Shown here piece by piece: positions 1,944 through 62,897 of a stretch of DNA of 64,000 nucleotides. The notes beneath the pieces were generated by a model. The model saw only the letters and a program-made list of their open reading frames with translations. It was not told the origin of the DNA and did not search any database. The position numbers and the translations under genes are program-made. Each line of letters opens with the position of its first letter. Position 1 is the first letter of the stretch. The stretch comes from Styela clava (Eukaryota; Chordata; Ascidiacea; Stolidobranchia; Styelidae): assembly GCF_964204865.1 (NCBI RefSeq), contig NC_135252.1, forward strand, positions 24,697,383-24,761,382, in the 5' to 3' direction.

Positions 1944-2559
1944 TGAATTTTCAGCGTACTCGAAAACACATAGTCTCTCTTTATATCCGCTTGTCTAGGG
2001 CCGTGATAGTGTCTCAGAAGCACAACACCTTATAAAAATATGTACAATGTAGTATTTTGATATTGCCACATAAAATTAGCAAATAAGGAGAGAATAAAAA
2101 ATATATAATAAAAAATGCATAAGATATAATAATAAAAGAAGGGAAATGTCGCCGGGGATGTAGCATTACCTAAGTTTTATTCACCTCCTTTCAAAAAAAA
2201 AATTAACCCCGCTCAGGTTGACAAAATTAAAAGGAATAATTTGAAAAATAAACGTGTGTTCGTGGTAGTATTATCTTCAGTGGAGACATAATGCATTGTA
2301 CAGCATGAAATTTTGTTGTTTTTTTACCTGAAAACTCGGCGTTTTCTTGGCATCAATAACTAAAATTACATTAATCCCAAACCGGAGTTATTCAAAATAC
2401 CAAATTCTGCAGGATGCAAAACTGGCCGTTTACAAACAGTGTTTGGGAGGGAAGAGCGGAATTGGATGTGTGGAGCTCCCTGAGTTTGTTGGGAAAAACA
2501 ATAAATTTTCACCTCAGCTCAATCTATTTTTAATTTCAGCGGGAAATTTCTCCGGTTTC
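1944..2559. other. No gene recognised
   Basis: AT-rich sequence with A runs. A 71-codon frame at 2347-2562 has no recognisable features. Confidence 0.5.
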
Positions 2560-3337
2560 TGAAAGTTTGAAAAACTACTCCGACCCGACTTTTTACGGTG
2601 GAAAAGGCGACAAACTCCAGATTGCTTGTTAGATATCAGTGGCGGCTTGTATAAAGCGTTGTTCGTAGCAAAAGGCCTCACAATGATTGAAGAAATGTCA
2701 TGTCACGATCTTTGAACGAGCCACTGTTTCTTTCCTCTTTCCCCAAAAACGCTGATTGGCGAGACATCTGTTTCTTTCAAATACTTTATTTTATCCATGT
2801 CGAACGCAAGTTTCTAGACTTGAAAATGTTGGACTCGAAGTTCGGAATCTGTTGGGACTTGACACGATAGCCGGACAACCCGTGGCTCGACTTTGAGATT
2901 TGGGGGGGGGGGGCTGAGAACTTGTACCCAATAGTGTACCCCATTCAGTTTCGTTGTAATAGTTTCGACTTTGTTTCCGGGAAACTCACAGGCCTAATAC
3001 GGTGGAAAAGCCGATTAAACTCCAGACTGTTTCTTAGATATCAGTGGCCCGCCCGTTGTTCGTAGAGAGAGACCTTGCAATGATTGATACGAAATGTCAT
3101 GTCACAACCCGTGGCTAGAATTTGAGACTTGGGGGCTGATGACTTGTACCCAATACTGCACCCCTTTCAGTTTCGTCGAAATAGTTTCGACTCTGTTTCC
3201 GGGAAATGTAAAAAACTACTCCGAACCGACTTTTTACCAGTGTTAAAGGCGACAAACCATATTTACTCCAACTGATCGTTAGATATTAGTGGCTGGTACT
3301 GTTCAGAAAATTTTAAACAAAATCTAGTGACAACGTT
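2560..3337. repeat. Diverged tandem duplication of the 3' flank of the 4.1-tail gene
   Basis: Blocks sharing AAAACTACTCCGA, GACTTTTTAC, TTAGATATCAGTGGC and TTTCCGGGAAA recur at about 2560-2700, 2930-3060 and 3180-3300. The copies probably arose by local tandem duplication that took in the end of the terminal exon. An 11-base G run lies near 2900. Confidence 0.6.
2703..2807 (-). pseudogene. Decayed duplicate of the cytoplasmic-tail exon of the glycophorin C/CASPR-like gene
   Basis: Read on the minus strand from 2807, this encodes a relic matching the C-terminal tail of the neighbouring gene: AFDMDK, then KETDVSPISVFGERGK, then QWLVQRS and a TGA. The intact exon has AYDMDK, KETDVPPTSVCGERGK and EWLV. 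A TAG lies just upstream in the same frame, the membrane segment is missing, and about seven codons are deleted after DMDK. The exon's 3' flank is duplicated as well (2560-2700 resembles 3208-3337), and a third partial flank copy lies at about 2930-3200. It lies 3' of the live gene, so it is a partial tandem duplication rather than an alternative exon. It could only be expressed as an abnormal read-through 3' end. Confidence 0.65.
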
Positions 3338-6300
3338 TCAAACAAGCCACTCTTGTTTTCCTCTTTCACCACAAACGCTCGTTGGGGGGACATCTGTTTC
3401 CTTAAGAGGTTTGTTCTCGCTGTTACTATATAGTTTATCCATGTCGTAAGCCTCGTTGATGTAATAAGAAGCCCGTTTGCAGAATCTATATCTAATCATT
3501 CCAATGAATAGGAGCAATAAGGTGACGAAGGCGATTATGGCGACAACTGAAATACATATATGAGAGAGTTATAATAGGGCGACATTAAAGTTTATATTTG
3601 ATAAAACGATATAGTCGGGCAATATGAAATGTGTTTGGTTGAATGGTTTGAGAAATGGTTTTTAAACCGGGTTTCTCGGCACCCTAGGGTCTGTCAAGTT
3701 TCATTGAAATTCGAGAGTCAATTTTCATACTGTTCAAGTATATTGTTATGAGTAATATAATCAAATGCTTATTAGGTTTGACCACTGTTCAGGGGGCGTA
3801 GCCAGAGGGGTTAGGGGCCGGAACTCCCCCTCCCCTTTTTGAAATATGAAAAATAAATAAGCATTTTTCTTTATTATACATAGCGATTGTAGCTTGAAAC
3901 GCTTTTTAGACCCTCAAAACTCTTGAAAACCCACGTGCTCCGGCCCCCGGCCAGAACCGCTAGCAGAACGTGGCCATCACAACATTTACAACCATCCCTT
4001 TAAAAATTTCTGGCTACGTCCCTGACACAGTGTTTTGTTTGAAGCGGAAGAATCAAAAAAGAATGGCATGAAAGTACCCACCGACTAACAAAGGAGCGCT
4101 TGCACTGTTTGGTGAAGGCTGGACGTCCGATAACGATGTAGAATTAGTCTCATTCGTTTCTGTAATAAAAAGATTGAGAATAAAATTCAGACAAGAAGAC
4201 ATGGAAGTTATTCAAAACGAAATCGAAACATTCAATCGCTTTCCTATAGGTATTAGTTGTTTCCCTCCCCCCCCCCAAAAAAAAAAAAAATTCGCCTCCC
4301 CATCCTTATGAAGTGTTATACCACACTTTAAATTTCTAACTTAGGTATAGGGTTACCATATTTTTTTGACCCCAAAGCGGGACGCCTCCAAAGACACGAC
4401 CCTTTAGCTGTGATCCTGTAACTTTACAGTTTCCGATTTTACTACATACCGTGTTTCCCCGAAAATAAGACCTAGCCTGAATTTTTAAAATGATTTTAAT
4501 ATGAGCTTTACCCTTAAAATAAGACCTAGAGCAATTTTTTTTTACCTAGTCGATAGCAAGACACCTTTCCTACTCGTTTTAAAGGATTAACATTCTATGT
4601 TTAGTAGTTATTTTGAATAAAAACGTGTTGGGTACTCCTGAAGTATGCGCACCAAGAAGTCGCATAACCTGAACCCTGACCTGGTACACAACCTGAGTTC
4701 AGGTTGTACGCCATCTTAGTGCGCATACTTCGGGAGGTCCACTTGCTATTTATAAGTACGGTAAATTAATATCGGTTTTCATATTTTGTTTATTTGAAAA
4801 TCTCGTAATTCTCTAAATTAAAACACAAGACATCCCCCCAAAATAAGCCCTAGGGTTCTTTTTCCAAAGAAAATTTAAGATACTGTTTTATTTTCGGGGA
4901 AACACGGTAGGCCTACATTTAAAGCCATCCCGGCCGTCTTCATTGACCATATTGTCATCGAGCGTTCATGCCCATATTCTCTGCCTAAATATCGGGTTCA
5001 GTTCGAAAAATAGAAAGGAATGTACGCTAACGATACAAATGATCCGAATTTAGATTTTTTATGTACGGGAATTTTATGTACAAAAGGAATAAAGAATAAT
5101 GAAATAGTCTGCCGTTTTTAAGCATTGAGAATTTACTTATTCGCCCAAGCATGCTTTTCTGTAGATAACACCGTCAAAAAGACGTTGTTCAATGTTACAT
5201 TCACGCCAACGTCGGAACAGGACCGATTAGAATTGATTTTACATGTGATACGTTCGCAAATAACTCATTCACCTTCAGTAAGTAGGCTAGCGTTGCGCTA
5301 CACAGCAACAACAGTAACGAGAACATGTTCGTGTATTATGCTGGATGGCTGAACGCCAAAGGGGACTTTTGGCTGACATGTCGGGACGGCGGGACAAAAC
5401 GCTAAAAAGCGGGACTGTCCCGCCTAAAGCGGGACGTATGGTAAGCCTAAACTTAGGTATAATTGTATTTGAATTTCCAGAAAGTAGCGCTTATAGGGGA
5501 TATATATTTTTTTATCGCTAATAGCAACATATTTACTACCCCCTAAAGTTGGAAACACCTCCATGAATTGAAGATCTGGGAGTCTCAGTGATTCGGATGC
5601 GATTAGAGTCTAATCCCATGGGCGGCAATCATGTGCGAAACGATTGCTTCCACAGGCCGGTTTCTGATTCACCGTTGGCGATTACGGCTCTCTCCACTAC
5701 CTGGGCTGATCAACTAACGAGAAGCCGTCCTTCGCCAAATGATTATGCCGTCCTATTGTCTTCCCTACCCCTCCGATCATTACCTTCTCAATATTAGTGG
5801 TTATTCAGAGCAAATCTGTAAAAACTCTCTATTCGACTTACTGAAATAGTTAGATTTTTCTATATCGTCCGTCCTCGATTCCCGTACATTTGAACCAACG
5901 ACAATTGCACCTGCATACTATTCCATCTATGAAATTTTTTTTTGTTTTGCGAATATTTGAACCCATACTAACCCTAACCCATGGTTTTTAGCACCCGCAT
6001 ATAGATTGAACCCGCGGATATACACATGTGTTCAAATGTACGGTCACCTCCGTCCTCTATTCAGTCTATTGGGGCAAAAAAAAACAGACTTACCAAATAG
6101 CACAGTAGAGTTCGCGCTAAAAACAGTGTTTCTTGATAAAGATTCATCGCTCGTTGAAAAGTCAATTTCTGACAGAGTAGTGTCTGAAATTATTTCGCTA
6201 ATGTTTGATGTAGCATGCGATGAAGATGTCATCAAAGTTGTGATGTCATTTGAAAGTTCATTTTGAGTCGTTGACGACGACGATGTCATGTTAGGCCATA

Positions 6301-7927
6301 GGATACTTCGTAACGTTGGTGCAGTAGGATCAGATTTATGAATAAATGTGGAATATTTGGTACCATTCTCTGATGACGTCACTAATGACGTAATTGGGTA
6401 TCCACTTCCTCCTGAAAAATTTCGGGTTATTTTAAAAAAGTGCAAATTTCCCACGCGACGTTTCGCGATAATGCTGCATACTCAAAAAGTGCAATATTTA
6501 ATTCCAAAAACTTGCGTTTCAATTGACGACAAAACCCTCCTAACAGCCATAAAGTGATTTAAACTAGGAAGTTTTGGCCTAAATGGAATAATTACTCACG
6601 CCAAATAGATCTTATTGAGAGTAGTATAAAGGTGGGATATATCTAAAATTAGTCCACGGACAGAGAGATCGTTCATGCATTAAGTCGAAATAAACAATGA
6701 TTTTATTGGTTTTTCAATCTGTACATTTTCAGAAAAGTGATCGAGGTGTTATTGTGCCATTGAAAGAATTTTATTTTTGAAAACCAAATCCTAAAATATT
6801 TCTAAAGTGGGCTTTATAAGTTTTTTTTAGGTATTATGAAATCAAATCATTTTAGTAGCTATGAAATCAAAGAAACGGGCTGCTTTGAGATTATACCTGA
6901 CGCATAGCAGGGGTGTGCTACCTGCGGGCCAAATGCAGCCCACAAGGAGAAATTGTGCGGCCCGCGGAGAAGGCCAATTTTGCATATGTGCGGCCCGCGA
7001 AACAAGTTTTTAATTTAGTTTATTCTAGAACAGGGTGGTCCAAGGTTGTCAGCTCCGCGGGCCACAAAATTATTTTTGCATTGTTCGCGGGCCACAATAG
7101 TGCCAAGAATAGGTGAAAAGTGCAATACAAAACAAACACTTTTATTGTGCATACATATAGTTAGCAGGCATAGCCATTCTAGGCTAATGGAATGCGCATT
7201 CGATTTTTATTTTTCTATGATGCCTATATTGTTAGCATATATATTCCCTATCAAAAAGTTAGAAAGCCAGATAACAATTTAGACTGCCAAGCACATTATT
7301 TAACTTCTCAAGTTGCCTCCGCTAGCCATAACACTATTTAATTCAGTGACATTAGTGATGACAATATGTCAAGAGATTTTTCTGATGAATTTTTATGACG
7401 AAACAACACGAAATGCGATTTTTTGATTACTCTCCGAATGTGACGCGGGCCACAGATATTGAAGCGGCGGGCCACATGTGACCCGCGGGCCTGAGTTTGG
7501 ACCACCCTGTTCTAGAACGTGCGGGTAATTCCAATTCTTTTGTGTTACAAAGCCTATACCTGAGTCCAATTTATTATCTATTCTTATGACGTTACAATGC
7601 CCTGCCAGCTAGATTGTGCGAAGCGAACAACGCAGGTCATGACGACTCATAAGATCAATAGCCAAACTTTTTTTGCCTGCAACCCATAGTAAGCCTATGT
7701 TAAATAAAGGTGCGGCCCGCGAATTCACCCAGTTATTCGTATCTGGTCCTCCTGTATTAGAGGTTGCACACCCCTGATGTCTACAGTTCGTAAAAGTTTA
7801 TGAACCACTGTTCTAAATTATTCTCAAGGCCAACAATTTATAAAAAAAAAAAAAAATTCCCACCTGATAATTCGTCGTCGTCGACTGGAGCCGTTGTTTG
7901 GTAAATCCCAGGCTGTGATGGCATCAT
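3338..7927 (-). CDS. Glycophorin C/CASPR-like single-pass membrane protein with 4.1-binding and PDZ-binding tail (3 exons)
   Basis: Coding exons 7864-7927, 6094-6411 and 3338-3546 join in phase 1 at both junctions with GT-AG borders (donors GTGGGA and GTAAGT) to give 196 residues. An in-frame TGA lies five codons before the first of two tandem ATGs (7925-7927). Residues 1-127 form a Ser/Thr-rich, presumably O-glycosylated ectodomain with four N-glycosylation sequons (NGT, NMT, NIS, NST) and no signal peptide. Residues 128-145 are a hydrophobic membrane span. The 51-residue tail starts IRYRF, contains YYINEAYD (155-162) and ends KQEWLV. From family knowledge, glycophorin C, neurexins and CASPR proteins share a juxtamembrane 4.1m motif of the form RY..(6)..Y..NEA and end in a type II PDZ ligand such as EYFI or EWLI. 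Inferred role: anchoring a glycosylated surface protein to band 4.1/MAGUK scaffolds. The lack of a signal peptide matches glycophorin C topology. Orthology to any one vertebrate gene is unproven. Confidence 0.8.
3790..4024. mobile_element. GGGGCGTAGCCAG element with G/C-rich ends
   Basis: CAGGGGGCGTAGCCAGAGGG at the left mirrors AATTTCTGGCTACGTCCCTG at the right. Related copies with longer homopolymer G or C tracts are at about 46760-46860, 50935-51075, 51415-51560 and 55945-56155. Confidence 0.7.
4449..4907. mobile_element. TA-flanked inverted-repeat element (CCGTGTTTCCCCGAAAATAAG family)
   Basis: CCGTGTTTCCCCGAAAATAA at the left mirrors TTATTTTCGGGGAAACACGG at the right, with TA directly on both sides (4447-4448 and 4908-4909). 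The TA duplication points to a mariner/IS630-type mechanism. A degraded relative lies at about 42590-42700. Confidence 0.75.
4631..4740. mobile_element. Short hairpin element (about 110 bp), CTCCTGAAGTATGCGC family
   Basis: GGTACTCCTGAAGTATGCGC at the left mirrors GCGCATACTTCGGGAGGTCC at the right. The core reads CTGGTACACAACCTGA. It is nested in the TA-flanked element, making three levels of insertion with the outer hAT. Confidence 0.8.
5878..6048. mobile_element. TTGAACCC palindromic element, copy 1
   Basis: It starts CCCGTACATTTGAACCA and ends GTTCAAATGTACGGTCACC, with ACCCATACTAACCCTAACCC in the middle. It ends 46 bp from the donor-side boundary of exon 2 of the 4.1-tail gene. Confidence 0.7.
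6908..7776. mobile_element. hAT-type non-autonomous element, host of a nested element
   Basis: The ends are inverted: CAGGGGTGTGCTACCTGCGGG at the left and GGTTGCACACCCCTG at the right. The left end continues with GCGGCCCGCG(G/A)A blocks. A second hAT (7031-7509) is inserted within it. Fragments of the same family occur at 15222-15360, 20850-20995 and (inverted) 47960-48110. The element lies in intron 1 of the 4.1-tail gene. Confidence 0.75.
7031..7509. mobile_element. Nested hAT-type element with perfect 8-bp target duplication
   Basis: CAGGGTGGTCCAAGG at the left and TTTGGACCACCCTG at the right are terminal inverted repeats. The flanks TTCTAGAA (7023-7030 and 7510-7517) are an exact 8-bp duplication, which is diagnostic for hAT. 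The body carries no transposase. A truncated inverted copy lies at about 57846-58094. Confidence 0.9.
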
Positions 7928-7934
7928 TTTGTTA

Positions 7935-7966
7935 TGACGTCACAATATTTTTAAAATATATATAAA
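7935..7966 (-). promoter_or_regulatory. Palindromic CRE and TATA-like stretch upstream of the 4.1-tail gene
   Basis: A perfect TGACGTCA (7935-7942) sits 7 bp upstream of the first ATG on the minus strand. An AT run reading TTTATATATATTTT on that strand (7953-7966) lies 11 bp further upstream. CREB/ATF factors bind the octamer, but its position relative to the real start site is unknown. It may lie in the 5' UTR, so promoter function is an inference. Confidence 0.35.
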
Positions 7967-7999
7967 TATCGTCTGTTTATATAGTAAATAAAATGAATA

Positions 8000-9071
8000 C
8001 CGATTCAAATCGGTTATGCGGATAGATGAAAAATTCAAAGAATTATTCAAAGGTGTGCAGATTTTTCACCCACGGACCTTTTCAACCACAACACGGCTTG
8101 GGTTGAGATTTTGTTTCAAGGTCGCCGTATGAATTGCTTGAAAATAATAACATACAAACAAACGTGGATTTAAAAGACATCTGGGCATAGTTAGGGTTAG
8201 GGTGTGGCGATTGCACCGGTATATGACGCCATTGCGGTGAATAAATTCAATACTCGATTGTAAGTTTTCCAAAATCCACAGCCATGAGGTTTCGGGTCAA
8301 TAATATTATTTGTCGCAGTTTGGTTTTACTTTACTCCAGTGGTTCCCACTTTTTCTGTCACATTCCTTACTTTGTCATTTTTGAAAAATTTCATACCCCT
8401 CACTATGCTAGGTTTATATATCACTATATTTGTAATATTACATCTACGGACAAATATTACTATATTAATTCATATATCTACAAGCCGATAGGCGCCCAGG
8501 ATCTCCGCTGTTAGTTGAGGCCCGCTCTCGAGCAACCGGTTACCATCCATAGAAACTTGCGGATCTATAAAGGCAGCGTGATTTGGCGAGCGGGTTATGG
8601 AAACTGCTAGTTCATTTTAAGCGCTGCGCGTTTCGAAGACATTTTTGCGTGATTGGTATGCTGTGGCTATTGCGGTAATTAAAATAATGTCTATTGTCCA
8701 CTACGATTCCTAAGGCTTCCCCAGTTTATGGAGTAGCGAGAAGAAAGACGATTCGTTCGAATGAGTTTTTGCCTCGGCGGAGGGCAGCGTTCCCGGAAAT
8801 TTAATTAACGGTTTAGCTTACGAGAAAAACGAGCAAATCAGAAATTTCTCAACAGTCGACGCGTTTTTTTCGCTGCTCCCATGGAACGAAACATCAAGCC
8901 TGAATTTGAGAAAAACGCGTAACTAGGGTGACAGGATAACCCACGAGAAAAATTTAATCTAGATCTGCCCAGCCGTTCAGACACTGCAACTAAACACACA
9001 GACAGGCAGAGCGACTGAGAATAAGCTGATAAGGGTCTCCTACTCACCTACTAGATCGGAGGTTCAATATC
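8000..9071. other. No gene recognised
   Basis: This lies upstream of the 4.1-tail gene. It contains a CATAGTTAGGGTTAGGG stretch near 8187 reminiscent of hairpin cores, and otherwise unassigned sequence. Confidence 0.5.
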
Positions 9072-9290
9072 GGTACTCCCGTAGTATGCGCACAAGATTA
9101 AGCCTTAGGTTTATTCGGATTTTCCTCATTTTAGTTCTACTACGAGTTCAGGGACTGTCTGTGTTAGCCAATTGATTATACCTCTGCTCATAGCTTTCAG
9201 TCCCTTTACACAAACAACTTCTTGTAAAATAGGCGAACGAAATTAGTTACCTCCATATTGTATTATTGGTACACACACTTCTGGAGCGCC
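9072..9290. mobile_element. CGCTCCAGAAGTATGTGTACC repeat, inverted copy
   Basis: It begins GGTACTCCCGTAGTATGCGC and ends ACACACTTCTGGAGCGCC, with GGGACTGTCTGTGTTAGCCA inside. Confidence 0.75.
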
Positions 9291-9810
9291 TCATATCTAC
9301 TCTATACACATTTGTCTTCCCTTTGATATCTCCCGTCCTAAAATGCTATATATCGCAAAGCTGACCTAAACACTATTATTGCATAAGGACGTCTGACTCA
9401 ACTGAGCGCAAAATGCTTACCATTCAATATTGGTTATTGACGGCTTGGTGTTGCGAACACCGGAGTTCAACTGAGTTGACAGGCCAAATAAGGAAGGGCA
9501 ATTCTAAAATCAGCTTTGGAAATGAATTTTGCATTAATAAAGTGAATTTAATATCAGGTAAGCCCAATACGTTTATTTATACTATCTAGCAGACGTTTGA
9601 ATTTTCACACAAACAAGACCCTAGACATGGTACCAATTATAAGCATTTTCAACTTGGCATTTCCAACCTACACTTTGGGTGAAGTAACATTTTATTCTGT
9701 TTATCGGCCAACATAACCAAAGAAAGAATTAAAGCTGCGAGCTTCCAGACATCGCGCCTATGTCACAATTGCGCTTTCTCTCAGTGTCAGTGCCTCAGCT
9801 GTACAAATCG

Positions 9811-10012
9811 GTTCCATTACATTTGAACCCACGTACATTTGAACCCATGACAATTGCACCTATATGCTATTGCACCTATGGAATTTTTTTTGTTTCACGG
9901 ATAGTTAAACCCATACTAACCCTAACCCATGGGTTTTAGCACCCACATATAGATTGAACCCATGGATATACGCATGGGTTCAAATATACATGGGTTCAAA
10001 TGTACGGTCACC
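9811..10012. mobile_element. TTGAACCC palindromic element, copy 2
   Basis: GGTTCCATTACATTTGAACC at the left, GGTTCAAATGTACGGTCACC at the right. Internal TTGAACCC/GGGTTCAA motifs alternate on both strands. It is in the same orientation as copy 1. Confidence 0.75.
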
Positions 10013-10157
10013 GTACAAATCCGGTTCTGCAAAAGGTCAACCAAATGATTTACATTTATATACAAGACGCTAGGCATAGCTTTCGAACCTACGATTTTAG
10101 ATCTTTTGTACAAAGTTCCCTCCAACATTCAAAATAATAAAAAAAACATATATTTAG

Positions 10158-11174
10158 TTAGAGGGATGGCTAGGAATGCAGATAGCGCTGGAAAAACAAA
10201 TTTTCAAATCATTTCCAACCCCAACTGGATAATTACTAATTTGGTATTTAAAAATATGGCGCCAATTTTTACCGCCAATGTATTTCAGTTTAACATTCTA
10301 ACCACAAATATCTAACTACAGCAACGTCTATGCATTAGCTTATATACTATTGATATGGCCACGATATTCTGGCTGAGGGGTTGCCACATTGATTGTCAAA
10401 TTCCGGTAAATTTGCTGATGTTTATGAACCGCACACGCAAAATTTCGCTTAATAAGCATTTTGACCGAGCATATTGTGACGTCAATAAACGTCTCGTGCA
10501 TAACCGTCGTCATCGCTTTCGTTGTATTCCAAATATAGTCAACCGATAAACGAAAGGAAGGCCCAAAAAGAACATTATAAATTGATTGGATTGCAAAAAA
10601 AAAACTGTAAAGCAAATTTCTTGTCACCCTGTTTAATGTTAATTAAGGAGATTTGCTACTTAAATGGCAAACTGAGAGCACTTGCGCCTCCATGCCAAAT
10701 ATAATCCCGGAGATCCGTCCAGTAATTGAAGAAAAGGGCGATTTTTAGTCTCCACAATAACGGCGAAATAAGCAACAATAATCTACCACAAAATCGAGTC
10801 GACCAGAAGTTAAAGAGAAAGGCGATAGTTAACAATAAGCGTAATTTGCCAAAAAAAGCGAAATCGATTCAACCAGAAATACGATATATAGTTGTTAAAT
10901 AGTAACGAATTCGCGGGGGATGTTTTGTACAAAGTCCCCACCAGGATAGGATAGGATTTACATATTTATCCCGAAGGAGAGGAAAGCCGATAAGACGGCT
11001 TATCCATATGGCGAACCACGATGCAACCACCACTAATGCAAAATATGAGATTTACGAAAAACACTCCCGCAATGTTTTAAAATAACAAATCAGTAATTAA
11101 CCAGTTAGGGTTAGAAACGATTTTAAAATTTAAACTTCGAGCGCAATCTGCATTCCTAGCCCAAACTCTAACTG
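10158..11174. mobile_element. About 1-kb element with long (about 110 bp) diverged terminal inverted repeats
   Basis: AGTTAGAGGGATGGCTAGGA (10158 on) matches the reverse complement of about 11065-11174, through GGCTAGGAATGCAGAT, AACTGGATAATTACTAATTT and onward. The interior contains an inverted SINE 3' fragment (about 10944-11024). No transposase frame was recognised. Confidence 0.6.
10944..11024 (-). mobile_element. SINE 3' fragment, inverted
   Basis: GGATAGGATAGGATTTACAT through GATAAGACGGCTTATCCATA is the reverse complement of the SINE tail. It is embedded in the 10158-11174 element. Confidence 0.75.
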
Positions 11175-11299
11175 GATAATTAGCAAAACAGCCGTGCATA
11201 TTTAAAAATTTCTACCCGTGCTCTTGTATTCTTAAGACTATATCGAGTTATCTAGTACTTAAAGATAAAATCTTTAGTCCTAACAATCACATTATGGGC

Positions 11300-12735
11300 A
11301 ACAATTAGCGAAACAATCCCTAAAACCGTGCATGATTAGGAACTACGAAAACGAATTTCCCAGTATTAGAAAACAGCGACATTTAGTCCTGCATCTATTT
11401 CACAACCACCAGTTGCCTGCAGCTTTTGACGATTATTTTGTTAAGCTTAGTAACGCACATGAACATAATACGCGCTCTTCGACAAGATCCAATTTATTTG
11501 TACCCCGCTTTTCAACGGGCAAAACTCAGAACTCCTTGAAATATAAAGGCGTTATAACCTGGAATAGTATTCCCAATGGTTTGCGTGACTCCACCTATGC
11601 CACATTCAAAGTAAAGTATAAAAAATTTTTACTTTCTTCTTACCCGTCTCCTGCCAGCACCTTGATTTGATGTGCTATCAGCATTTGCCTTGCCATTGTT
11701 AGTTCAATACTTGTTCAGATCCACAGCCTATAAAAGTGTCCCCCAGAACCTGGATCAAGGCTGTTGTGAAGGATCCGATTTTAGTGATTCTCTTCCATAA
11801 TCCCCACAGTTTTGCCCTTCGCTGTATATGCAAAAATGTACCCAGTAATTGATTACCTCACTAAACCATAAAGGGTGAGATTATGCCTACCTAAGGATAT
11901 AATCGAATAATTCATGGATCATATTTTGTTCTGGTTTCTATGATGAGGGTCTTTTTGATTTAGTGATCCTGCTCTCTGAATTAATATTGATTTATTTATA
12001 TTAATTGTTATTTGGTTCTTAAAAACTAGTGTCTCTATATTTTATATTCTAATTGTGTTGTCTGGTATTTTCAATTTTTTGCATTTCTTAGTTCACATCA
12101 TAGAATTGAATGATGTATTTACCTGTTAATTTTCCATTTCTCTGTTTACATGAATTGGATTGTATTTTCATCCAATACCAATTCCTTCCTCAAATTTTCC
12201 AATGACTCCAGTTCTGGAAACCATACCACAGTGCCAATACTTTCTTGAACTTGCTCCCATATTTAAGATAATTGTAACCATCAAGATGTGCTTATATTTC
12301 AAAATATATTTCTTAATAACTAACTGCCTTAATTACGTATCCCGGCGTACATGGCCACTATCATACCGCGCGGCCTCAAAAGCAATATTCTTGTAGGGTT
12401 TCACGACGCTGACTGTGGTCGGACTGCTGTTATATTACTATACTGTTGCCCATGATTACCCTGGTTGTGCCTGGAGTCTCTTTTTTGTTACGGTTTTGGA
12501 TTTTCTTGGACATTCTTTCCTTCACTGCTTAAATGTGTTCGATTTATTCTATTCTACTTGTATCAAAGTTAGACATTTATCACAGGTGTCGCTGCTAGAT
12601 AACCAACATTGGTTTTTTAGCGTCACCCTTCACCATGAAATGCCTTTATTTATGTTTTCTCTAATTTTTGTTCGCATTACGTGTATGTTTCATTTTGGTG
12701 AAAAATAAACGACTGACTGACTGACTGACTGATAA
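11300..12735 (+). mobile_element. 5'-truncated non-LTR retrotransposon (CR1/L2-like) with (CTGA)n tail
   Basis: The frame at 11332-11670 encodes the extreme C-terminus of a LINE reverse-transcriptase polyprotein. The hallmark pattern is HNTRSSTRSNLFVPRF, then LKYKGVITWNSIPNGLR, then ATFKVKYKKFLLS. About 1 kb of 3' UTR follows and ends at 12711-12732 in tandem CTGA units. A short tandem-repeat 3' end instead of poly(A) is typical of CR1/L2-type LINEs. The rest of the RT and the endonuclease are missing, so the copy is dead. Confidence 0.75.
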
Positions 12736-13120
12736 CAACAACAACATAATCTGCAAATCAACCCGTAATTCTGTGTCTAAACAAAAAATACTTGCTCACG
12801 CCCTTTTACTGTTAGCCTAAGCTTTCTTCTAACTGACTGACAAACACGACAATAAACACAATCGCTGCGATTCGCACTTCATGTCATAACATTTGTGATC
12901 GTGTCGCGACCTCAATTAACTGCAGATTCCCGCACTCAAGTAGTTTAAATTAGGCCTTGTACGTCACGCTTGATTGAAGATACACGCCATGCTTGACCGG
13001 CTTTGACTGAGTGAAATAAAATACACTGAAGTAGTGATTCGATACTTTTTTCGATAAATTCCTCCTTTGCCAAATTTGGATCTTTTTATTCCCCCTCACA
13101 AAGCATAAGAGCTCTGTTTA

Positions 13121-14220
13121 CGTTATTTGGTCAATCTTTAACCTTTAGCCAGTGAACTCGCACTCTGGCTTTTGCACAGTCGAATAGAATAGATTACAAT
13201 GCATATGTAGTATAATAATACTAAATAAATAAACAAGATTAGTCAAACTATACGGTAATATCCCCATCCCTGAAACAACAAAACTTCTTTCTGGAGAGAA
13301 AATCATACCCCGTTGGGGTACATTGAATTAATAAATTAAATTCAAACATAAAGAAGTACTAAGTTTCCGTTATTTGCTCAATCTTTGACCCATAGCTAGT
13401 TCTGTGAATAGCCCGAACTCTGGCATTTGCACATTTCGAATAGTTTATATTATATTCACAATTACGTATCACAATAATACTGAATACTAAACAAAGAATC
13501 CGCCAACAACGACTGAGAAACGCTGCACTTTATATTATACAATCATTTCGTTTTTAGTACAATCTCTATCACTCAGCTAGCGGATACGCACAACTCGCAC
13601 TCTGGATTTTGCACACTTCGAATAGTTTAAAATATATTCGGTGCTCCCGTAGTATGTGTACCAAGATGGCGCACAACCTGAACATAGTATGTGTAACAGG
13701 TTCGGGTTATCAGTTTGTGCGTCATCTTGGTGCGCATTCCACGGAAGCGCTATATATTCATAATTATATATTACAATAATACTAAACAAATAAACAATAT
13801 TAGTAAAACTATATCAAATATAAGCAATAACTAAGTTTCGGTTATTTGTTCAATCTTTCATAGATCCTTGCTTTTGCGCAGTTGGAAAGTTTATGCGTTA
13901 ACATATATATTATAATAATACGAAATAAATGAACAATATTAGTGAAACTACATCTAATACAAAGTAAAACTTTCTGTTAAATCTTGACGGATCCTCAGCC
14001 AGTGATACAAACCACTCTGACTTTTGCAAACTTCAACTTGAAGAAGTAATACTAATGTTCGGGTATTTGTTCGATCTTTCATCGATCCTTAGTTAGTTCT
14101 ACGCACAACTCTGACTTTTGCACACTTAGTTTAAAATAGTATATTATAAGTTCATATAGTATCCATAATTACGCATTACAATAATACTAAGTAAAGGAAC
14201 AATAATAATGGAATTAAAGC
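13121..14220. repeat. Diverged tandem array, about six units
   Basis: A unit containing TTATTTG(G/T)TCAATCTTTGA, ACTCTGGCTTTTGCACA, TTCGAATAGTTTA and TTACAATAATACTAAA(T/C)AA recurs at about 13121, 13371, 13545, 13845, 13980 and 14060. Spacing varies between about 100 and 250 bp through deletions and one hairpin insertion. Confidence 0.65.
13640..13750. mobile_element. Short hairpin element inside a tandem array
   Basis: GGTGCTCCCGTAGTATGTGT and the far arm ATCTTGGTGCGCATTCCACG form an imperfect hairpin with ACCAAGATGGCGCACAACCT/GTGCGTCATCTTGGT pairing. It interrupts one repeat unit of the 13.1-14.2 kb array. Confidence 0.7.
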
Positions 14221-14692
14221 AAATACAAGGTAACATCTCCTCTTCAGAATCAACTAAACAAAGAGTCCCGCCTCCCTCCCGGGTGGGGAAAAGCTGCACT
14301 AAACCTTATGTGAATCAGTGCTGGTCAACCTTGTTTCAAAGGGTACACCGTTTTCATCTTCACACATAGTCTGGTACAACCCAATCATTCTAACCGAGTC
14401 GGTAAAATTTAACGTCGTACGAGCGGGTTGCTGGACTCATCGAAGTCGCAGGTTGGTTAACATGAACTTTCCTTCCGCGTTCCGTCGACTTGTGTCGGAA
14501 GGATTACCTTCATTATGAAAATATAGGCATTGATGCATTACGCGTTAGATTGAAAACCGATTGAATTTACTCATAGTATGTCTACGCAGTTAGTCGTTCC
14601 ATCGTCATGAGGACCGACTGATATCAGGTAGATATAATTTGGGAGTGGTTTTTAATCACTGCTGCACCCCAGGGTTTCGTACATACAGCTCA

Positions 14693-14830
14693 GGTTGTTC
14701 CGCGAGTTTTCATTCCAATTCGAGAGTCTATTTGTAATAATGCAATATGCTTGTCTGAAGAAGCCTGACCACGATCCGACAAATAGTTACAGAAATACAT
14801 TTGTGTGCGTGCAGCAAGACTCTTGAATCT
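14693..14830. repeat. Dispersed repeat shared with 32513-32640
   Basis: The reverse complement (AGAGTCTTGCTGCACGCACA, AAATGTATTTCTGTAAC, CTTCTTCAGACAAGC) matches 32513-32640. The family is not identified. Confidence 0.5.
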
Positions 14831-15221
14831 AATTGTCCATATAAATATATGTAGTGTATATTGTTTAAATAAAATACCTTTTGAGTTCGCCACTATTATT
14901 AAACTTGCGACACTTTGAAGATCATTTTGTTTTGCCAGTAATAAATAGGTTCACTTTTATTTATAGGCTATAAACAATTAAGAAAATTAAACCATTGCAC
15001 AAAGGTTCCTCGAATCTTTGGGAATGTTCCTTGGGGCTCGGTATCTAGTCATAGTATTGATATTCACCAAATATTTAAAAATAAACGTTTCACTTATTTT
15101 TTCGAGTTTTTTCAATTTTCGGCCTTTTTGGCCAAATACTCGATATGCTTGAAACATGAACGTTCTTGATTCTGATTGTGCCCCTTTGGCATGCGGTCTC
15201 AGCGTTTGTGTGATCTAGGTC

Positions 15222-15360
15222 ATAGATGTGCAACCTGTGGCCCGCGGGCCAAATGGAGCCCACAAGGAAAACTTGTGCGCCCCCGCGGAGAAGCGCCACT
15301 TTTGAATGGTGTTTGGTCCGCGAAACAAGTTTTTAATTTAATCTAGTATGTGCGAGTAAT
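15222..15360. mobile_element. hAT end fragment (6908 family)
   Basis: AGATGTGCAACCTGTGGCCC through GCGAAACAAGTTTTTAATTT matches the left end of the 6908 element. The right side is cut by a hairpin element. Confidence 0.65.
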
Positions 15361-15363
15361 TCC

Positions 15364-15470
15364 GATACTCCCGAAGTATGCGAACCAAGATGGCGGACAA
15401 CGGAACGTAGTATGTGTATCAGGTTAGGGTTAGGCCATAATTTCAGGTACAAATATTACGGGAGTCACTT
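15364..15470. mobile_element. Short derivative of the CTCCCGAAGTATGCG hairpin family
   Basis: The left arm ACTCCCGAAGTATGCGAACC matches the family. The right end TATTACGGGAGT is a short reverse copy. GGTTAGGGTTAGG is in the middle. It truncates a hAT fragment on its left. Confidence 0.65.
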
Positions 15471-15858
15471 GGCTAGTACCCGAACCCGTAATAGAAGTAA
15501 ACACGGTATGAGAATGTCTTTATGAGATCAAACGCACCACACTTGCATGCCTGAGCAAATATTGGACGTGCGACGTCAGATATCATAAAAATCAAATAAG
15601 AGTGACAAACATACTACACCTTTGAATAGCGCATGATTGCCACCAGGTATATTCATGTCAAAGATAAATAACGCACAACCGTTGTAACACCGGTTCAATA
15701 ACGAACCTTATTGGCAATTAATAGGTCTGTTTAGCAAATAATAACAATATGCAGTATTTGAGCTCAGAGAAGTACTTCCTTGGTATCAGTGAGTGTCTAG
15801 AATTGAGACCTGTACGCAGTAAAAGCCACTAAGATTGAGTCCGTAAACGGAAAGCAAT

Positions 15859-16224
15859 ATGTCTTCAACCAACCAGGAAAAGATAAAAGTTTTTGATTGG
15901 TTAACAAATCAAATTGCTACGAATCAGCTGAGCGTGGCGTTGAAAAAACAGGATAATACCGATTTTATCCGGTTTATGGAGCGACACCAGGACAGTGATG
16001 ATTCGGACGCTGAATCTTTGCCCTCTGAACCTGAGGAATTTGACTGTGAATGCGGGTTTCGAGGGAAACGATGTTGTACCTGCCCTGTTTCGTACGTCAA
16101 CTATAAATTGAAAGACAAACAATGGGTCCCGTGCCAAGATCTTATTAAAAAAGTGGAAAGGGCTTCTGAGTACCGTCAAGAACGTCTCGAGAAACGCAAA
16201 CCGTACCTTGAAATGTTGGTATAA
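15859..16224 (+). CDS. Hypothetical acidic, cysteine-cluster protein, 121 aa, single exon
   Basis: I do not recognise this protein. One uninterrupted frame runs from ATG (context GCAAT-ATG) to TAA. Residues 1-45 are predicted mixed helix (KVFDWLTNQI, SVALKK). Residues 48-63 are acidic (DSDDSDAESLPSEPEEF). Residues 64-76 hold a tight cysteine cluster, CECGFRGKRCCTCP (C-x-C-x6-C-C-x-C). The C-terminal 40 residues are charged and helical (DLIKKVERASEYRQERLEKR). The balanced amino-acid mix and absence of transposon sequence inside it argue for a real gene. It might be one exon of something larger, but no splice site is needed. A hAT element begins 176 bp downstream. The cluster could bind zinc, which is an inference from spacing alone. 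Confidence 0.5.
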   Translation: MSSTNQEKIKVFDWLTNQIATNQLSVALKKQDNTDFIRFMERHQDSDDSDAESLPSEPEEFDCECGFRGKRCCTCPVSYVNYKLKDKQWVPCQDLIKKVERASEYRQERLEKRKPYLEMLV

Positions 16225-16399
16225 ATATCGATAAACGAATCAGAAACGATAGAGCAGTGATGGCGTTGAAGGTAAAAAGAATGGAAAAAAGACGAAGCCA
16301 GATTGAACCATATTAAGACTAATGTACTCGGTAATATTATTTCAGCGGTTTCAACCGTGTCGCCCTATTGTTCCAGCAATGTAGTCTAAGGCTCTAAGC

Positions 16400-16838
16400 C
16401 AGGGGTCGGCAACCTTTTATCGTTCGCGGGCAAAAATTAAGGTTGCAAGTCATTGGCGGGCCGCACATATTTTTAGAAAGTTGAAAAACCGAACGGATGG
16501 TGCTTTTTATATTAAACATCAAGCAGTGATACATCTCTCGAATAGAATATAGATTTATTTCCTCATTGCATCTCATTTGAATATTTTTAGCGTCATTAAG
16601 CCATTTGTACTTAACATCAACTTTTCTGCGTTTTGTTGCCATTTGCTTGATTATAATTAAATTATTTGCTCATTAAACGAGTAATTGTGAATTATATAAT
16701 TGTTAGGTTATAATATAATTTAGTCTAACGAATATTTTCGCCAAAACGGATGTTTTGTTACCATAATTTAGTGAATCGTCGCGGGCCGGATTATAGTGCT
16801 CCGCGGGCCGGATCCGGACCGCAGGTTGCCGACCACTG
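16400..16838. mobile_element. hAT-type element with perfect 8-bp target duplication
   Basis: The left end CAGGGGTCGGCAACC and right end GGTTGCCGACCACTG are inverted. Flanks CTCTAAGC (16392-16399 and 16839-16846) are identical. The internal part (16500-16735) matches 60-310 at the window start. Confidence 0.92.
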
Positions 16839-16887
16839 CTCTAAGCGGTTCCGCAAGTTTCTAATTAGATATAAGTGTCCATATTAA

Positions 16888-17047
16888 TACAGGGTGTTCA
16901 TAAAGTCTCTTTACGACATTTCTCAATATATCTTAACCAGGTTTGTTGTTTTTTAATCAGTTTTTGTTGTATTTCAACTTCATTTAATACATCTGTGAGG
17001 GCCAAAACAATATACCCGTTGTGATTTTAAAACTTTTGGACACTCTA
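16888..17047. mobile_element. TA-flanked mariner-like miniature element
   Basis: TACAGGGTGTTCATAAAGTC at the left and CTTTTGGACACTCTA at the right are degraded inverted ends. The interior CAATATATCTTAACCAGGTT matches the copies at 24848, 27622 and 60479. Confidence 0.7.
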
Positions 17048-17389
17048 TATATGTATATTTTACAAATGTAATAAAATACCTATTAATTTGCTTTCGTTTT
17101 GCCGGCTTTATTTGTTTTATATACATTTGATATAATTCACAGTTCACGGACTCGAAAAATTAATATAACTATTGTGCAGTGAGAATTTGTGTGAAAAACA
17201 GTTAAGAACTTAACAAAACGATTTTGCCTTGCTTTCTTTCGTTTCTTGCCGATTTCCCTACTTTTCGCCTCTTTTTCCGTGTCCAACTCTCGGACGTAGC
17301 CAGACCCTATTCTTAACGTATTTTAGGCGATTTTGCAGCTAGACACAAACTCTCACGTCTTTCCCAACACTATTTTGCTCTATGGACCT

Positions 17390-17880
17390 TTTCCCGAGCA
17401 TCTACTTCCACGTTTACTTCGTGACATTGGCCAATCAGCAAGCTGCAAAAAGTTACGTAGCTTCGCATCCGCTCAGTCATTTTACTCGCTCAGACAGATT
17501 TTCAGACGTGGTCGTTAACATTACCTGGTTTTCGCGTTTTTGAATTCTATTCGTTAGTTTTCAGTTGTGTTTCGGATATTTTAAATATATATAAAATAAT
17601 TCAATGATCACTTTGTCTTCTTAGGAGTGTCAGTTTAATTGCAGTATTCAAAAATTAGTGCAGAAATAGCTGTGATAGACCAGTCTAAAATTCTTTACCG
17701 GTACTTTTAAAAAACAGATTGTTGAATGCTATGAATCAGAATGATAGTTTAAAACAAATACCCCATTTTTCATGCGCCAACTCGCGAAACCACTCTTAAA
17801 ATAAGCACCGAAAAACTTGTAAAGGTAAAGTATTGGAAGAACTTTACGGGGTCAAAGGTCGAGGAAAGGTTCATTCGTGA
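17390..17880. repeat. Segment duplicated at 385-890
   Basis: It is collinear with 385-890 over about 480 bp. Both copies lie downstream of the same hAT interior (1-310 and 16500-16735), so a larger block was probably duplicated. Confidence 0.7.
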
Positions 17881-19428
17881 ACAATTCACTGATAGTTCCA
17901 TGTTGCTTGACTTAATATCATTCCTTCCCTCCAAACATATCAACCGAGCCTCTTTTAAATATATAAAAAGAAAAAAAAAAACAGTGACCGCGGGTGTGCG
18001 CAAGCAATGGCGTTTATATGCTGTGTCAGTCATGGCTTGTGCCGCGCGCGCCGTTTAGACATAGTCGCAAACAGAGCGAAGAGTTTCATGTAAAAAATGT
18101 TTCAACGTAACGTAAAATGTTTCAATAAAATGATTTCAAATAGGAAATAACCTAAACTCGTATTTTCACTTAAATAATAACGTAGAAGCATCTCAATTCG
18201 TCAACAGTCGTTAAAAATTGTCAGTCAACAATAAAAGGAGCGAATTTTCAAACTTCGTCATGGGCGACATTTTACGTAGATACACCACTATGTACACCTT
18301 GTTCTGAGCGAAAGGCGCGTGTAAAAATGTTGGTCACCGGAATTCTGGACTGGTTAAGTTATTTGTACTTCCACGCTATATTTAAGGTGTTTCCCGGTAT
18401 CTTTATCAGTTTCAGGCTGTTATATTCTTTTCCCTTTGTTTTTTAGTAAGTAGTAACACCCTACTACTCCAATAATTTTTACGAACAAACTATGGTTATA
18501 GTCAGTAACGTTACAAAGTCAAATTATATAGTTAGTAACGTTAAGCAATATTATAGGGCTAAGTGTATTTCATACTTGTGCTTATCTATTATCTCATTAA
18601 TGACCAGTTTCTCATATATTATAGTGTACAAATGATACAAATTATATAAATTGATAATAAAAGATAATTCATACGAGAACCAGAAGATGCGAGCATTGCC
18701 TTGGGTCGACTTTTTGAGAACATTTCCAGGAAATAACTAATTCTATATCGTAACTAATTCGGTTTTAAATTCAAGTTACGGTTCAAGGTCAGTATAACCT
18801 GGCTCAAACCTAGCTTGTAAATTAAGCAAGCGACGAATAAAAGCAAGTTAAGGTTCTTTAGCCATGGCATCACAGTTAAACTTCGCAACTTATTCTTATT
18901 CTTAAATACGATGTCTTTGAGTCGAAGTGTGTAACTACGACGACACATCATAGAACTGGGTAAGAATATTTCGATTTCCATTCCATAAGACATACGTTCT
19001 TAAAGTGCTCCATACGGAGCCCCAGGGCGTGATAGAACCCTATTTTGGGCTATTAACATACGGACTTGGCGAATTTTGTAACTGTCCAAATGAACATTAA
19101 CAGCATTAATAAAATTTGACAACAACAGCGTCGAAATGTGGCAAGAATGCGGTAATTCAAATATGACATTATCTATAAGTTCCAATAAATAATGCAATAT
19201 TCAATTACCGCCTTGTTGCCACATTTCGACACTACTTTATTTATAGGTTAATATAAATTGATGGTGGGGCTCGGTAAATAATAGACAACCTCGTCACACG
19301 CTCCATAACACCAAAAGTTTAAGAAATCCTGCCATAAGATTCCAGTTTTTCCGATAAATGTTGTGCCTCACGGTTACATTCCGACTTCGACACTAAAATG
19401 AAAATCTGGGGAGCATATTGACTACAGC
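17881..19428. other. No gene recognised
   Basis: Unassigned AT-rich DNA with short accidental frames. TGTTGCCACATTTCGACA near 19215 and its reverse complement near 19130 form a local inverted repeat. Confidence 0.5.
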
Positions 19429-19813
19429 TAGGCTTACCATATGTCCCGATTTAGGCGGGACGGTCCCATTTTTGAACGTCTTGTCCCGGCGTCCCGACCG
19501 GTCAGCCAAAAATCCCGCTTTGACGTTGAGCCAGTCAGCACGATACACGAACATTACTAATTACTGAATGTGGATGCGTGGTTTTGTTTGTTCCGTTGTT
19601 TTAATCACTACAATTTGTTATGTGTAAGTTCCGTACGCCAAAAGGGTGCTTAACGTCAACGTAAATTCCTTTCTATTTTTCGAACTGTAACCGATATTCA
19701 GACAGACAGCGCATCAACTCTAATGTCAAATCGGTAAATTTGAAATTCCAAAAATCACAGCTATGGTCTTTGGAGGCGTCCCGCTTTGGGGTAACAAAAA
19801 TATGGTAACCCTA
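19429..19813. mobile_element. hAT-type element, GGTTACCATA family, with perfect 8-bp target duplication
   Basis: The ends are TAGGCTTACCATATGTCCCG and ATATGGTAACCCTA. The flanks ACTACAGC (19421-19428 and 19814-19821) are identical. It is shorter than its relative at 4347 because that copy carries nested insertions. Confidence 0.88.
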
Positions 19814-20630
19814 ACTACAGCTATTACCGCTTTTTTACAACGTTGCGGTGCACCTACTATCTGCCTGCCTTTCATAATCCATACTTCTCCACCATCGACT
19901 CAACTGCAGTCAAACAAACATGCAATATTATGCAGACGAAATTTCATGCTTGACTGATTGAATTGAGACGTCACATTACAATAATTTCCTGTTTCCTGTA
20001 TGACGTAACAACACTATGAATATAAATGAAGGCTCGTAACGTGACCTATATTCTCACGAGTATTCGACTGTTTACTTGAAGATTTTATTGTTAGTTTTCG
20101 CATCTTTTCTCGGAACAAGGCATTAGAAAGCAGCCACGTATACATAACAAGATGTTTCTGGCAGGTATCTCCTAGGTTCGGTTCTTTATATGTGACACCA
20201 ATACAGTTGGGTTCAGCGGACTAACAACGGGGTCAGGGGCGCCCAAACATCTCAAACACTTACGGCACATTTACTTTTTACAATACAATTCACAAGAAAG
20301 TTGAGTTTATTAATAGTAAATCGGAATGAGCGGCGTTGTATTTGTGGGCATAACGTGCCAGAATGCCCGACGTCACCAGGCAACGTGAATTTTATAAGGT
20401 TTGGTCATTTTATAACAAATTTATTTTTAACGCGGACGCAAAACCAATCTTGCGCATTGATTAAATGTGAATATGTTATAAAAAGTTGACTTGTAATTTA
20501 CAGCTGATCAAGTTATGGTCGATCATGCCCACAAAAGCTAATTTATGTATCGCATTGAATAAGTCGCCGCGGTAGGACTAAATTACCTCATGTCACATTT
20601 TAACGTTTTGAGAAATCGCAATTTTGGACT

Positions 20631-21151
20631 TGTACGGCCAACCCTAAAAGTAGACATTATCAATGAGCATATATACATGCTCATTGACATTATGCAGTAT
20701 CTAAAATAAAAACTAAAACTTGTATAGCTTAAAACCAAGTACAAAAGATGGCTCCTAATTCATAATGACATGAGGCAAGCAAAGCCCATTACTAAATGTG
20801 ACATGAGCTAATTTGGTTGTACCGCGGCGGAATGTGCGAATACTGTACAAACGGTTGTGCAACCAGCAGCCCAAAGGAAAAAAATATGCGACCCGCGAAG
20901 CAGTGCCAATTTAAAGGGTGTGCGGCCCGCGAAACGAGTTTTTAATTTAGTTTAGTCTGGTGGGTGCCAGTAATTCGAATCCCGTTACAAAATAACAATT
21001 TTGTTATTCAGACCTGTACGGCCAGCCCTAAAAGTAGACTTTATGCAGTAAAACTAAAACGGGTCTAGCTTTAAAAACAAGACCGGAAAAATGGCACCTG
21101 GTTCGTGACATAAGCTACTTAGGTTGTACTGCGGTGGAATGTGCGAATACC
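20631..21151. repeat. Local direct duplication split by a hAT fragment
   Basis: 20631-20842 and 21012-21151 share GTACGGCCA(A/G)CCCTAAAAGT, TATGCAGTA and GC(G/A)GAATGTGCGAATAC. About 20850-20995 between them is a 6908-family hAT end (GCGGCCCGCGAAACGAGTTT). A perfect 11-bp-arm hairpin (20660-20687, loop ATATAC) lies in the first copy only. Confidence 0.6.
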
Positions 21152-62234: not shown

Positions 62235-62897
62235 TCAGCCCAAACCATCAATCAAAGTTCCCTTTACTTTCTTAGACAAACCAGCTCCCCCTTCACCAGG
62301 ATTATTTTTCCTTTTTGTCATTCCTTTTCTTTCCAATTGCCGTTCAATAACTTTAGCATTCGCTGCATAACTATCGGCAATTTCGCGAGCCTCCAACGCA
62401 TCCTCTTCATCGTCAATTGTCGAGACAGTAACGGAACTGAATTTTCCCATGTCTTTTGTTCTTTTTATTAATGTGACTTTCTTAGGAGCAGATTTCGGTT
62501 TGCTGTTTATATTCATTTTAAAAACGCTATCTCCTTCGGTAACCAGACCGCCATAGAATATGAAAATTGCATCTTTTGTTTCTTCTGTGTGGCGATACAA
62601 CAACGGCAAACTACATCGTTTGCATTTTTGTCTGAATTGTTTTTCGATTCCGTCAGCCCATTTCAAGAATATCGTTTCGTCTTCTTCAACGTTATTAAGA
62701 CGATAAGCATGTTTTTTCTTGTCGATTACTCTCGCTTTATCGCGCCTCCGCAGCGGTAATTTTTCAATGGCACAGTCCAGGATTAAAACCATCTGTCCGC
62801 ATAAGCAATAATATGTATGAAGTGGCTTTGCATCGCCATAAGTCTCTTGGTCCTTTGTGTCTGTACAAACCACGCTACGTGAAATAATTTTGGGCAT
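62235..62897 (-). CDS. STEEP1: STEEP1 (STING ER exit protein / CXorf56), single exon
   Basis: One frame of 220 residues matches human STEEP1 (about 222) from end to end: N-terminal [20 protein letters not shown], then [16 protein letters not shown], the [13 protein letters not shown] block, [12 protein letters not shown] and a basic C-terminus ([19 protein letters not shown]). CLCG and CKRC form a likely paired zinc-binding site. In mammals STEEP1 promotes STING exit from the ER and PI3P membrane curvature. In an invertebrate the conserved core function is less clear. No intron interrupts the gene. It could be an ancestral single exon, intron loss or a retrocopy that replaced its parent. The frame is fully intact, so it is not a decayed copy. 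Confidence 0.95.

Follow-up and report, generated by a model that had tools for sequence, protein, structure and literature searches.

Does the ascidian Styela clava encode a small glycosylated membrane protein whose cytoplasmic tail resembles those of Caspr2 and glycophorin C, or do the exons that suggest such a protein belong to a larger gene, to an unrelated family or to no gene at all? The question is raised by a stretch of 64,000 nucleotides (nt) from contig NC_135252.1 (RefSeq assembly GCF_964204865.1, forward-strand positions 24,697,383 to 24,761,382), the whole of which is called the window here, in which short minus-strand exons can be joined into one reading frame. The locus is very probably a small gene of this kind, predicted to encode a glycosylated membrane protein with a Caspr2/glycophorin C-like tail. 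A narrower reading, which we favor as reasonably probable, is that of a four-exon gene on the minus strand whose product of ~222 residues would serve as a glycophorin C-like anchor for protein 4.1 and a MAGUK.

Exon structure of the predicted gene

An earlier note on this DNA had joined three minus-strand exons (7927-7864, 6411-6094 and 3546-3338; 64 + 318 + 209 nt) in exact phase into 196 codons containing IRYRF, YYINEAYD and EWLV, and its coordinates, frame and motifs were reproduced here. Both introns of this model are phase 1 with GT/AG borders, the exons splice in frame, and the stop codon directly follows EWLV. The three exons stand, but the list was probably incomplete, as a further open segment (4159-4082; 78 nt, phase 1/1) lies inside the intron between 6094 and 3546, with an acceptor among the best 1.0% of AGs and a donor among the best 2.7% of GTs on the strand. 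As a prediction, the four-exon model of 222 residues is preferred over the three-exon model of 196 residues. Since skipping of exon 3 keeps the frame and returns 196 residues, forms of both lengths may exist. The features of the preferred model are as follows.

7976..7983, minus strand: TATA-like box, a consensus match only, ~50 nt upstream of the first ATG
7864..7927, minus strand: exon 1, first coding exon; ATG ATG at 7927, 21 codons + 1 nt, phase-1 donor
6094..6411, minus strand: exon 2; 318 nt, phase 1/1, encodes a stalk rich in Ser/Thr that holds 4 N-glycosylation sequons
4082..4159, minus strand: exon 3; 78 nt, phase 1/1, encodes ETNETNSTSLSDVQPSPNSASAPLLV with 2 added sequons; constitutive or cassette
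3338..3546, minus strand: exon 4; transmembrane (TM) helix, 4.1m/GNP-like juxtamembrane motif IRYRFCKRASYYINEAYD, C-terminal EWLV and stop

Splice sites were scored with consensus tables. The donor of exon 1 (CAG/GTGGGA) ranks among the best 0.34% of all GTs, that of exon 2 among the best 1.1%, and the acceptor of exon 4 among the best 4.9% of AGs. An in-frame TGA is located 12 nt upstream of the exon 1 ATG. Use of exon 1 as an internal exon was considered and rejected because its acceptor is too weak: the sole AG tested within it was equaled or beaten by 46.5% of AGs, leaving no usable acceptor. Between 22600 and 6450, eight combinations of an ATG with a phase-1 donor scoring 5 bits or more were found, two of which are the two ATGs of exon 1 itself. 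The exon 1 donor was the best of the set, and none of the eight stood out as a signal-peptide exon. The TATA-like box is weak evidence, given that the surrounding DNA is AT-rich.

The predicted protein is compact, signal-less, mucin-like and single-pass, in support of the architecture that the earlier note had proposed. Serine and threonine make up 37% of the ectodomain, which carries four N-glycosylation sequons in the three-exon model and six in the four-exon model. A hydropathy scan identified a single TM segment, with a best 19-residue value of 3.2, whereas the N-terminus showed no hydrophobic run; inclusion of exon 3 extends the hydrophobic segment to APLLVVVAIIAFVTLLLLFIGM. The cytoplasmic tail of 51 residues contains all three motifs, IRYRF, YYINEAYD and the C-terminal EWLV. 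The latter fits the type II PDZ-like pattern [YWF][FLYVI][IVL], which terminates 1.2% of simulated open reading frames (ORFs) of at least 40 codons.

Rarity in simulated DNA and codon usage

The tail was tested as a pattern comprising a basic-aromatic stretch, [GAST][ST]Y..[NDH]E[AS], a TM segment ahead of it and a hydrophobic C-terminus. This pattern occurred in one of the 689 window ORFs of at least 40 codons, whereas 300 simulated windows, with 207,549 ORFs of that length, gave none. Similarly, among open segments of 300-700 nt with phase 1 at both ends, exon 2 alone passed the splice cut-offs (acceptor 4.0, donor 6.8) on the minus strand, and none did so on the plus strand; 200 simulated strands produced five passing segments, of which none was both Ser/Thr-rich and equipped with at least three sequons. 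The candidate itself scores 4.01 for the acceptor and 8.14 for the donor, with 6.87 for the exon 3 donor. As the patterns were devised after viewing the sequence and the cut-offs lie barely under the candidate's own scores, these figures are indicative and not clean p-values.

Codon usage was assessed with a training set of 1415 codons from the same genome by asking how many open non-coding segments scored as high as each exon. This was the case for 0.26% of 2688 segments for exon 1, 12% of 1919 for exon 3 and, with a background of just 139 segments each, 5% for exon 2 and 0.7% (one segment) for exon 4. Codon usage thus favors coding for exons 1 and 4, lends slight support to exon 2 and none to exon 3.

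Likeness of the tail to Caspr2 and glycophorin C

Human Caspr2, glycophorin C, neurexin-1 and CADM1 tails entered the comparison as provisional, non-database sequences, and neurexin, syndecan and CADM tails were also taken from the S. clava genome. The global alignments with Caspr2 and glycophorin C were compared with 1000 shuffles each in one run and 2000 each in a second. Among the provisional human tails, the cytoplasmic part of the candidate aligned best with Caspr2 (z 7.9-8.2), followed by glycophorin C (z 6.3-6.5), both alignments scoring above every shuffle, and neurexin-1 (z 4.0). Against the CADM tail of the same genome it reached z 4.1, with 3 of 2000 shuffles equally good. As a yardstick, the same-genome CADM tail aligned with human Caspr2 at z 8.3. 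Four unrelated TM-proximal tails served as negative controls against Caspr2 and gave z values of -0.4, 0.2, 1.2 and 2.9, so that values near 3 mean little.

Profile searches provided a similar picture. When a TM-plus-tail profile was built from the four provisional human and two same-genome tails, exon 4 ranked first among 1628 window ORFs (E 5.2e-6; next 0.94), and it again ranked first with a profile restricted to the neurexin, syndecan and CADM tails of this genome (E 0.0025; next 0.092). A genome-wide search with the human Caspr2 TM segment and tail likewise placed exon 4 first. The likeness as we read it spans the TM segment and the entire tail, following RY...[ST]Y..NEA...EWL[VI]. A search of the genome with a CNTNAP2 half-tail returned no match; this query also missed the same-genome CADM tail, and its empty result therefore carries no meaning.

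Several observations weigh against a glycophorin C-like anchor. When the human Caspr2 TM and tail were searched against the 376.6-Mb genome, exon 4 came first of three matches at E<=10 with an E value of 0.117, which is not significant alone and draws its weight from ranking first genome-wide and from aligning nearly end to end (residues 2-66 of 66). The other two matches were an Ig/EGF/TM frame (E 1.5), read here as neuregulin-like, and the TM half of the same-genome CADM gene (E 3.0). Profiles built from cytoplasmic parts only placed exon 4 first both times but weakly (E 1.6 and 0.13), indicating that the TM segment supplies part of the profile signal. Alignment with human CADM1 gave z 3.2, near the worst negative control (2.9), and same-genome neurexin (z 1.8-1.9) and syndecan (z 1.9-2.2) did no better than that control. 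The Pfam Syndecan profile (PF01034) does recover the tails of the same-genome syndecan (E 1e-19) and neurexin (E 0.004), but of 14 candidates scored across the genome it lists 12 at E<=10, exon 4 not being one of them, and PF01034 was also unmatched in Pfam scans of the predicted protein. Searches of the predicted protein and tail against Pfam, NCBIfam and PDB yielded best E values of 0.05, 0.09 and 0.55, all unrelated and sub-threshold. The main molecular ground for doubt on 4.1 binding is the changed core, CKRASYY in place of the 4.1-binding RHKGTYH of human glycophorin C. In the exon model, exon 2 has an ordinary acceptor (best 13.5% of AGs), and a rival first exon is found in intron 1 (6985-6922), in repeat-like DNA and mildly hydrophobic (hydropathy 1.85), although it is not convincing as a signal peptide. 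Finally, the case is built on the genomic DNA of one genome. The CASPR/glycophorin C-type tail proposed by the earlier note is supported, Caspr2 being the closest and glycophorin C the next of the tails compared, but the case for a 4.1m motif was overstated: the core is degenerate, the cytoplasm-only profiles are weak, and the tail is missing from the listed PF01034 matches.

Related genes in the same genome

The tails used for comparison come from three loci. Neurexin (C2:26.84-26.89 Mb) has laminin G exons and the tail end KEVDKEYYV, and syndecan (on C6) ends in GKEYFA; in both, the TM segment and tail are encoded in one exon. The CADM/nectin-like gene (C4:4392000-4401999) carries Pfam matches that exceed their cut-offs, I-set (E 1.7e-7) and ig (E 8.5e-5), with a C2-set match between them that stays below its own; we read these as three Ig domains. 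Its tail, TYHTNE...TEYFM, is strikingly similar to the vertebrate GNP motif, and the motif is split by a phase-1 intron (HK/G). The earlier note had described 4.1m tails outside vertebrates as best known from very large neurexin and CASPR proteins; with syndecan and Ig-domain CADM tails of the same general kind in this very genome, that statement was too strong. The C-terminal domain of a protein 4.1 was located at C19:12.78 Mb, so that a candidate 4.1 partner exists in the genome. A partial match to glycoside hydrolase family 6 (GH6; E 1.5e-6) fits a tunicate genome, GH6 domains of animals being linked with the tunicate cellulose synthase; a COX1 search, with two candidates scored, gave no match.

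Two further laminin G loci (C4:8.20 and C18:11.27 Mb) had neurexin-1-alpha as their best PDB match, and no TM/tail exon was found in the 19-20 kb downstream of them. With a CNTNAP2 discoidin domain as query, 105 candidates were scored, of which 27 matched at E<=0.01. No gene combining discoidin and laminin G domains was recognized, the nearest pair on one contig among the matches listed being ~1.7 Mb apart. This suggests that CASPR may be absent or very divergent in this genome; as no CASPR chain was among the PDB matches of the laminin G loci, a divergent CASPR would still be compatible with these data.

Flanking region and search for a larger gene

The same-strand upstream neighbor is a pancreatic-lipase-type gene with many exons (window 22626-31356, minus; PF00151, best E 1.1e-32), which continues into PLAT-like exons ending in a stop. 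The latter were recognized by eye and had no Pfam match. Fusion of the candidate with this gene was considered and rejected, as the PLAT-like end stops at ~22.6 kb. In the 14.8 kb between the lipase gene and exon 1 (7801-22600), a read-through scan of the three minus-strand frames found no Pfam match at E<=1, including none to an Ig domain. The same scan recovered the Ig exons at the CADM locus as a positive control; it missed the lipase PLAT-like exons, and short or divergent exons could therefore escape it. Genome-wide, none of the listed laminin G matches (19 for PF00054 and 24 for PF02210, E<=0.001) fell on this contig. At the sensitivity available, the candidate is consequently not recognized as the tail of a larger laminin G gene, in line with the earlier note.

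Elsewhere in the window, TMEM129-type (59197-60186, minus; PF10272, E 1.5e-93) and STEEP1 (62238-62933, minus; PF25809, E 2.3e-36) genes are each mostly coded in one open frame. A 125-codon open frame on the plus strand (15847-16221) encodes a Cys-rich stretch (FDCECGFRGKRCCTCPVSYVNYKL) and had no Pfam match, and an Rfam scan of the window returned no matches. Just before the window, two plus-strand frames (L009:7868-8614 and L010:3-968) each encode a single-pass TM protein lacking a tail like that of the candidate; one has a long Ser/Thr-rich ectodomain, and neither could be placed clearly in a Pfam family (a sub-threshold match for L009 only).

Tandem duplication downstream of exon 4

Downstream of the stop codon, the 3' part of exon 4 has a decayed copy.

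2715..2807, minus strand: decayed tandem copy of the 3' part of exon 4, encoding KETDVSPISVFGERGKKQWLV and three further residues, without a TM segment

The copy matches exon 4 with 74% identity by tblastn (E 6.9e-4) and forms with it a direct repeat (D2) of 83% DNA identity at a spacing of 626. It belongs to a region (window 2550-3240, minus) in which the tail end and 3' untranslated region are tandemly repeated in overlapping pieces at spacings of ~220-640. Searched against the genome at E<=10, the exon 4 protein matched only itself and this copy. Over 21 codons, the copies differ at 3, 2 and 6 sites in codon positions 1, 2 and 3, respectively (four codons synonymous, five not), which is at most a hint of constraint as the changes are too few to test.

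Alternative explanations

A rather unlikely alternative is an unrelated family of mucin-like single-pass proteins whose tail converged on the 4.1m/PDZ arrangement and has no ancestor in common with CASPR or glycophorin C. Convergence is easy for short linear motifs, the cytoplasm-only profiles are weak, the Pfam Syndecan profile misses the tail, and the L009 and L010 frames show that single-pass TM proteins without such a tail lie just outside the window. What speaks for shared descent is that the likeness covers the TM segment and the whole tail and exceeds all shuffles and four unrelated TM tails. It is also unlikely that a larger transcript, coding for a divergent CASPR, a CADM-like or another adhesion protein, ends with exons 2-4 and that exon 1 is a false first exon. 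Every intron is in phase 1, like the one where TM segment and tail meet in the same-genome CADM, the closest tail of those compared is that of Caspr2, itself a large protein, and the exon 2 acceptor could pair with another upstream exon. Such a transcript would have to be reconciled with the lipase gene occupying the same strand at ~31.4-22.6 kb, the 14.8 kb up to exon 1 devoid of Pfam matches at E<=1 in a three-frame scan that short or divergent exons can escape, the absence of all 19 and 24 listed laminin G matches from the contig, and an exon 1 with an excellent donor and an in-frame stop upstream.

A dead or dying remnant, in which the final exons of an otherwise lost gene of CASPR type were retained by chance, appears improbable. 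It would be in keeping with the lack of a recognized CASPR gene, the listed discoidin and laminin G pairs on one contig being at least ~1.7 Mb apart, and with the decayed copy of the 3' part of exon 4; against it, four exons are still open and in phase, their splice sites are good, their codon usage is in part that of coding DNA, and the position-specific differences between the tandem copies give at most a hint of constraint. Least credible of all is a chance assembly of open segments without any gene. A long AT-rich window does contain many short open frames, and the patterns were picked after the fact, but in separate tests the tail was absent from all 300 simulated windows and an equivalent of exon 2 from all 200 simulated strands, and exons 2 and 4 lie 2.5 kb apart on the same strand and in phase. 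A more speculative proposal, doubtful though conceivable, is that the gene for the CASPR ectodomain was lost in this lineage while its anchor persisted as a mucin-capped mini-protein, a CASPR-like gene having been reduced to stalk, helix and tail, an invertebrate glycophorin C. If true, the glycophorin C design would have been reached by a second route, or the protein would be the sister of vertebrate glycophorin C.

A putative membrane anchor

If the four-exon gene is expressed as predicted, the TM helix itself would export the mucin-like N-terminal part (~150 residues), giving the protein the signal-less reverse-anchor (type III) topology of glycophorin C. The exported part, presumably glycosylated at its sequons, would form a spacer or sugar coat and not a folded adhesion domain, a role suggested by its mucin-like composition. 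On the cytoplasmic side, the juxtamembrane basic/aromatic stretch RYRFCKRASYYINEA could dock on the FERM domain of the protein 4.1 encoded in this genome, and a type II PDZ domain of an MPP/CASK-type MAGUK could be engaged by the C-terminal EWLV. The outcome would be a three-way link from the membrane to the spectrin-actin cortex, the likely cellular role of such a protein. Binding to FERM and PDZ domains is proposed by analogy with the glycophorin C-4.1R-MPP1 and CADM1-4.1B-MPP complexes and with the GNP motif of Caspr and Caspr2. The ternary GPC-4.1R-MPP1 complex, the type II PDZ ligand EYFI and the CADM1-4.1B-MPP complexes are described in PMC7662862, and PMC3180372, or both papers between them, cover the GNP motif in Caspr and Caspr2.

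Comparison with known systems

Known from vertebrates, glycophorin C has been examined most closely in red cells. An invertebrate-chordate counterpart, if true, would imply that a minimal membrane-to-4.1/MAGUK staple predates the vertebrate red cell or arose apart from it, and would offer a simple system for asking whether 4.1-PDZ tails function without an adhesive ectodomain. The bearing on the origin of glycophorin C that the earlier note had seen does not follow from a single genome and needs other species, and the link that it drew to septate junctions is not supported by this analysis. In the literature, neither a non-vertebrate glycophorin C nor a tunicate CASPR gene was noticed among the matches listed, coverage being thin for subscription journals. 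The locus also exemplifies genes that automated annotation easily misses, with short exons, a low-complexity ectodomain and a single linear-motif tail.

Human glycophorin C shares with the candidate its small size, signal-less and Ser/Thr-rich ectodomain (glycosylated, as is predicted for the candidate), single TM segment, juxtamembrane RY...Y..NEA and type II PDZ C-terminus, as well as a four-exon structure with TM segment and tail in the last exon. It differs in having RHKGT where the candidate has CKRAS, EYFI in place of EWLV, and an ectodomain of ~57 residues compared with ~150 residues and six sequons here; no likeness of the ectodomains is claimed. Caspr2/CNTNAP has a tail nearer to that of the candidate than any other compared, down to the EWL[I/V] end, but comprises ~1300 residues compared with ~222, and no discoidin, laminin G or EGF domain was recognized in the candidate. 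The same-genome CADM/nectin-like protein has the stalk, TM segment, GNP motif and PDZ-type C-terminus in common (tail z 4.1), but its gene contains Ig-domain exons and an intron within the motif, whereas the candidate's tail is a single exon. The neurexin (C2) and syndecan (C6) of this genome likewise combine a TM segment with a short tail and an aromatic PDZ-type end in one exon, but their tail likeness is near noise (z 1.8-2.2) and neurexin has laminin G exons. The candidate is not classed as CASPR, neurexin or CADM, as their ectodomains were sought and not found. On paper, it would work like glycophorin C with a Caspr2-like tail.

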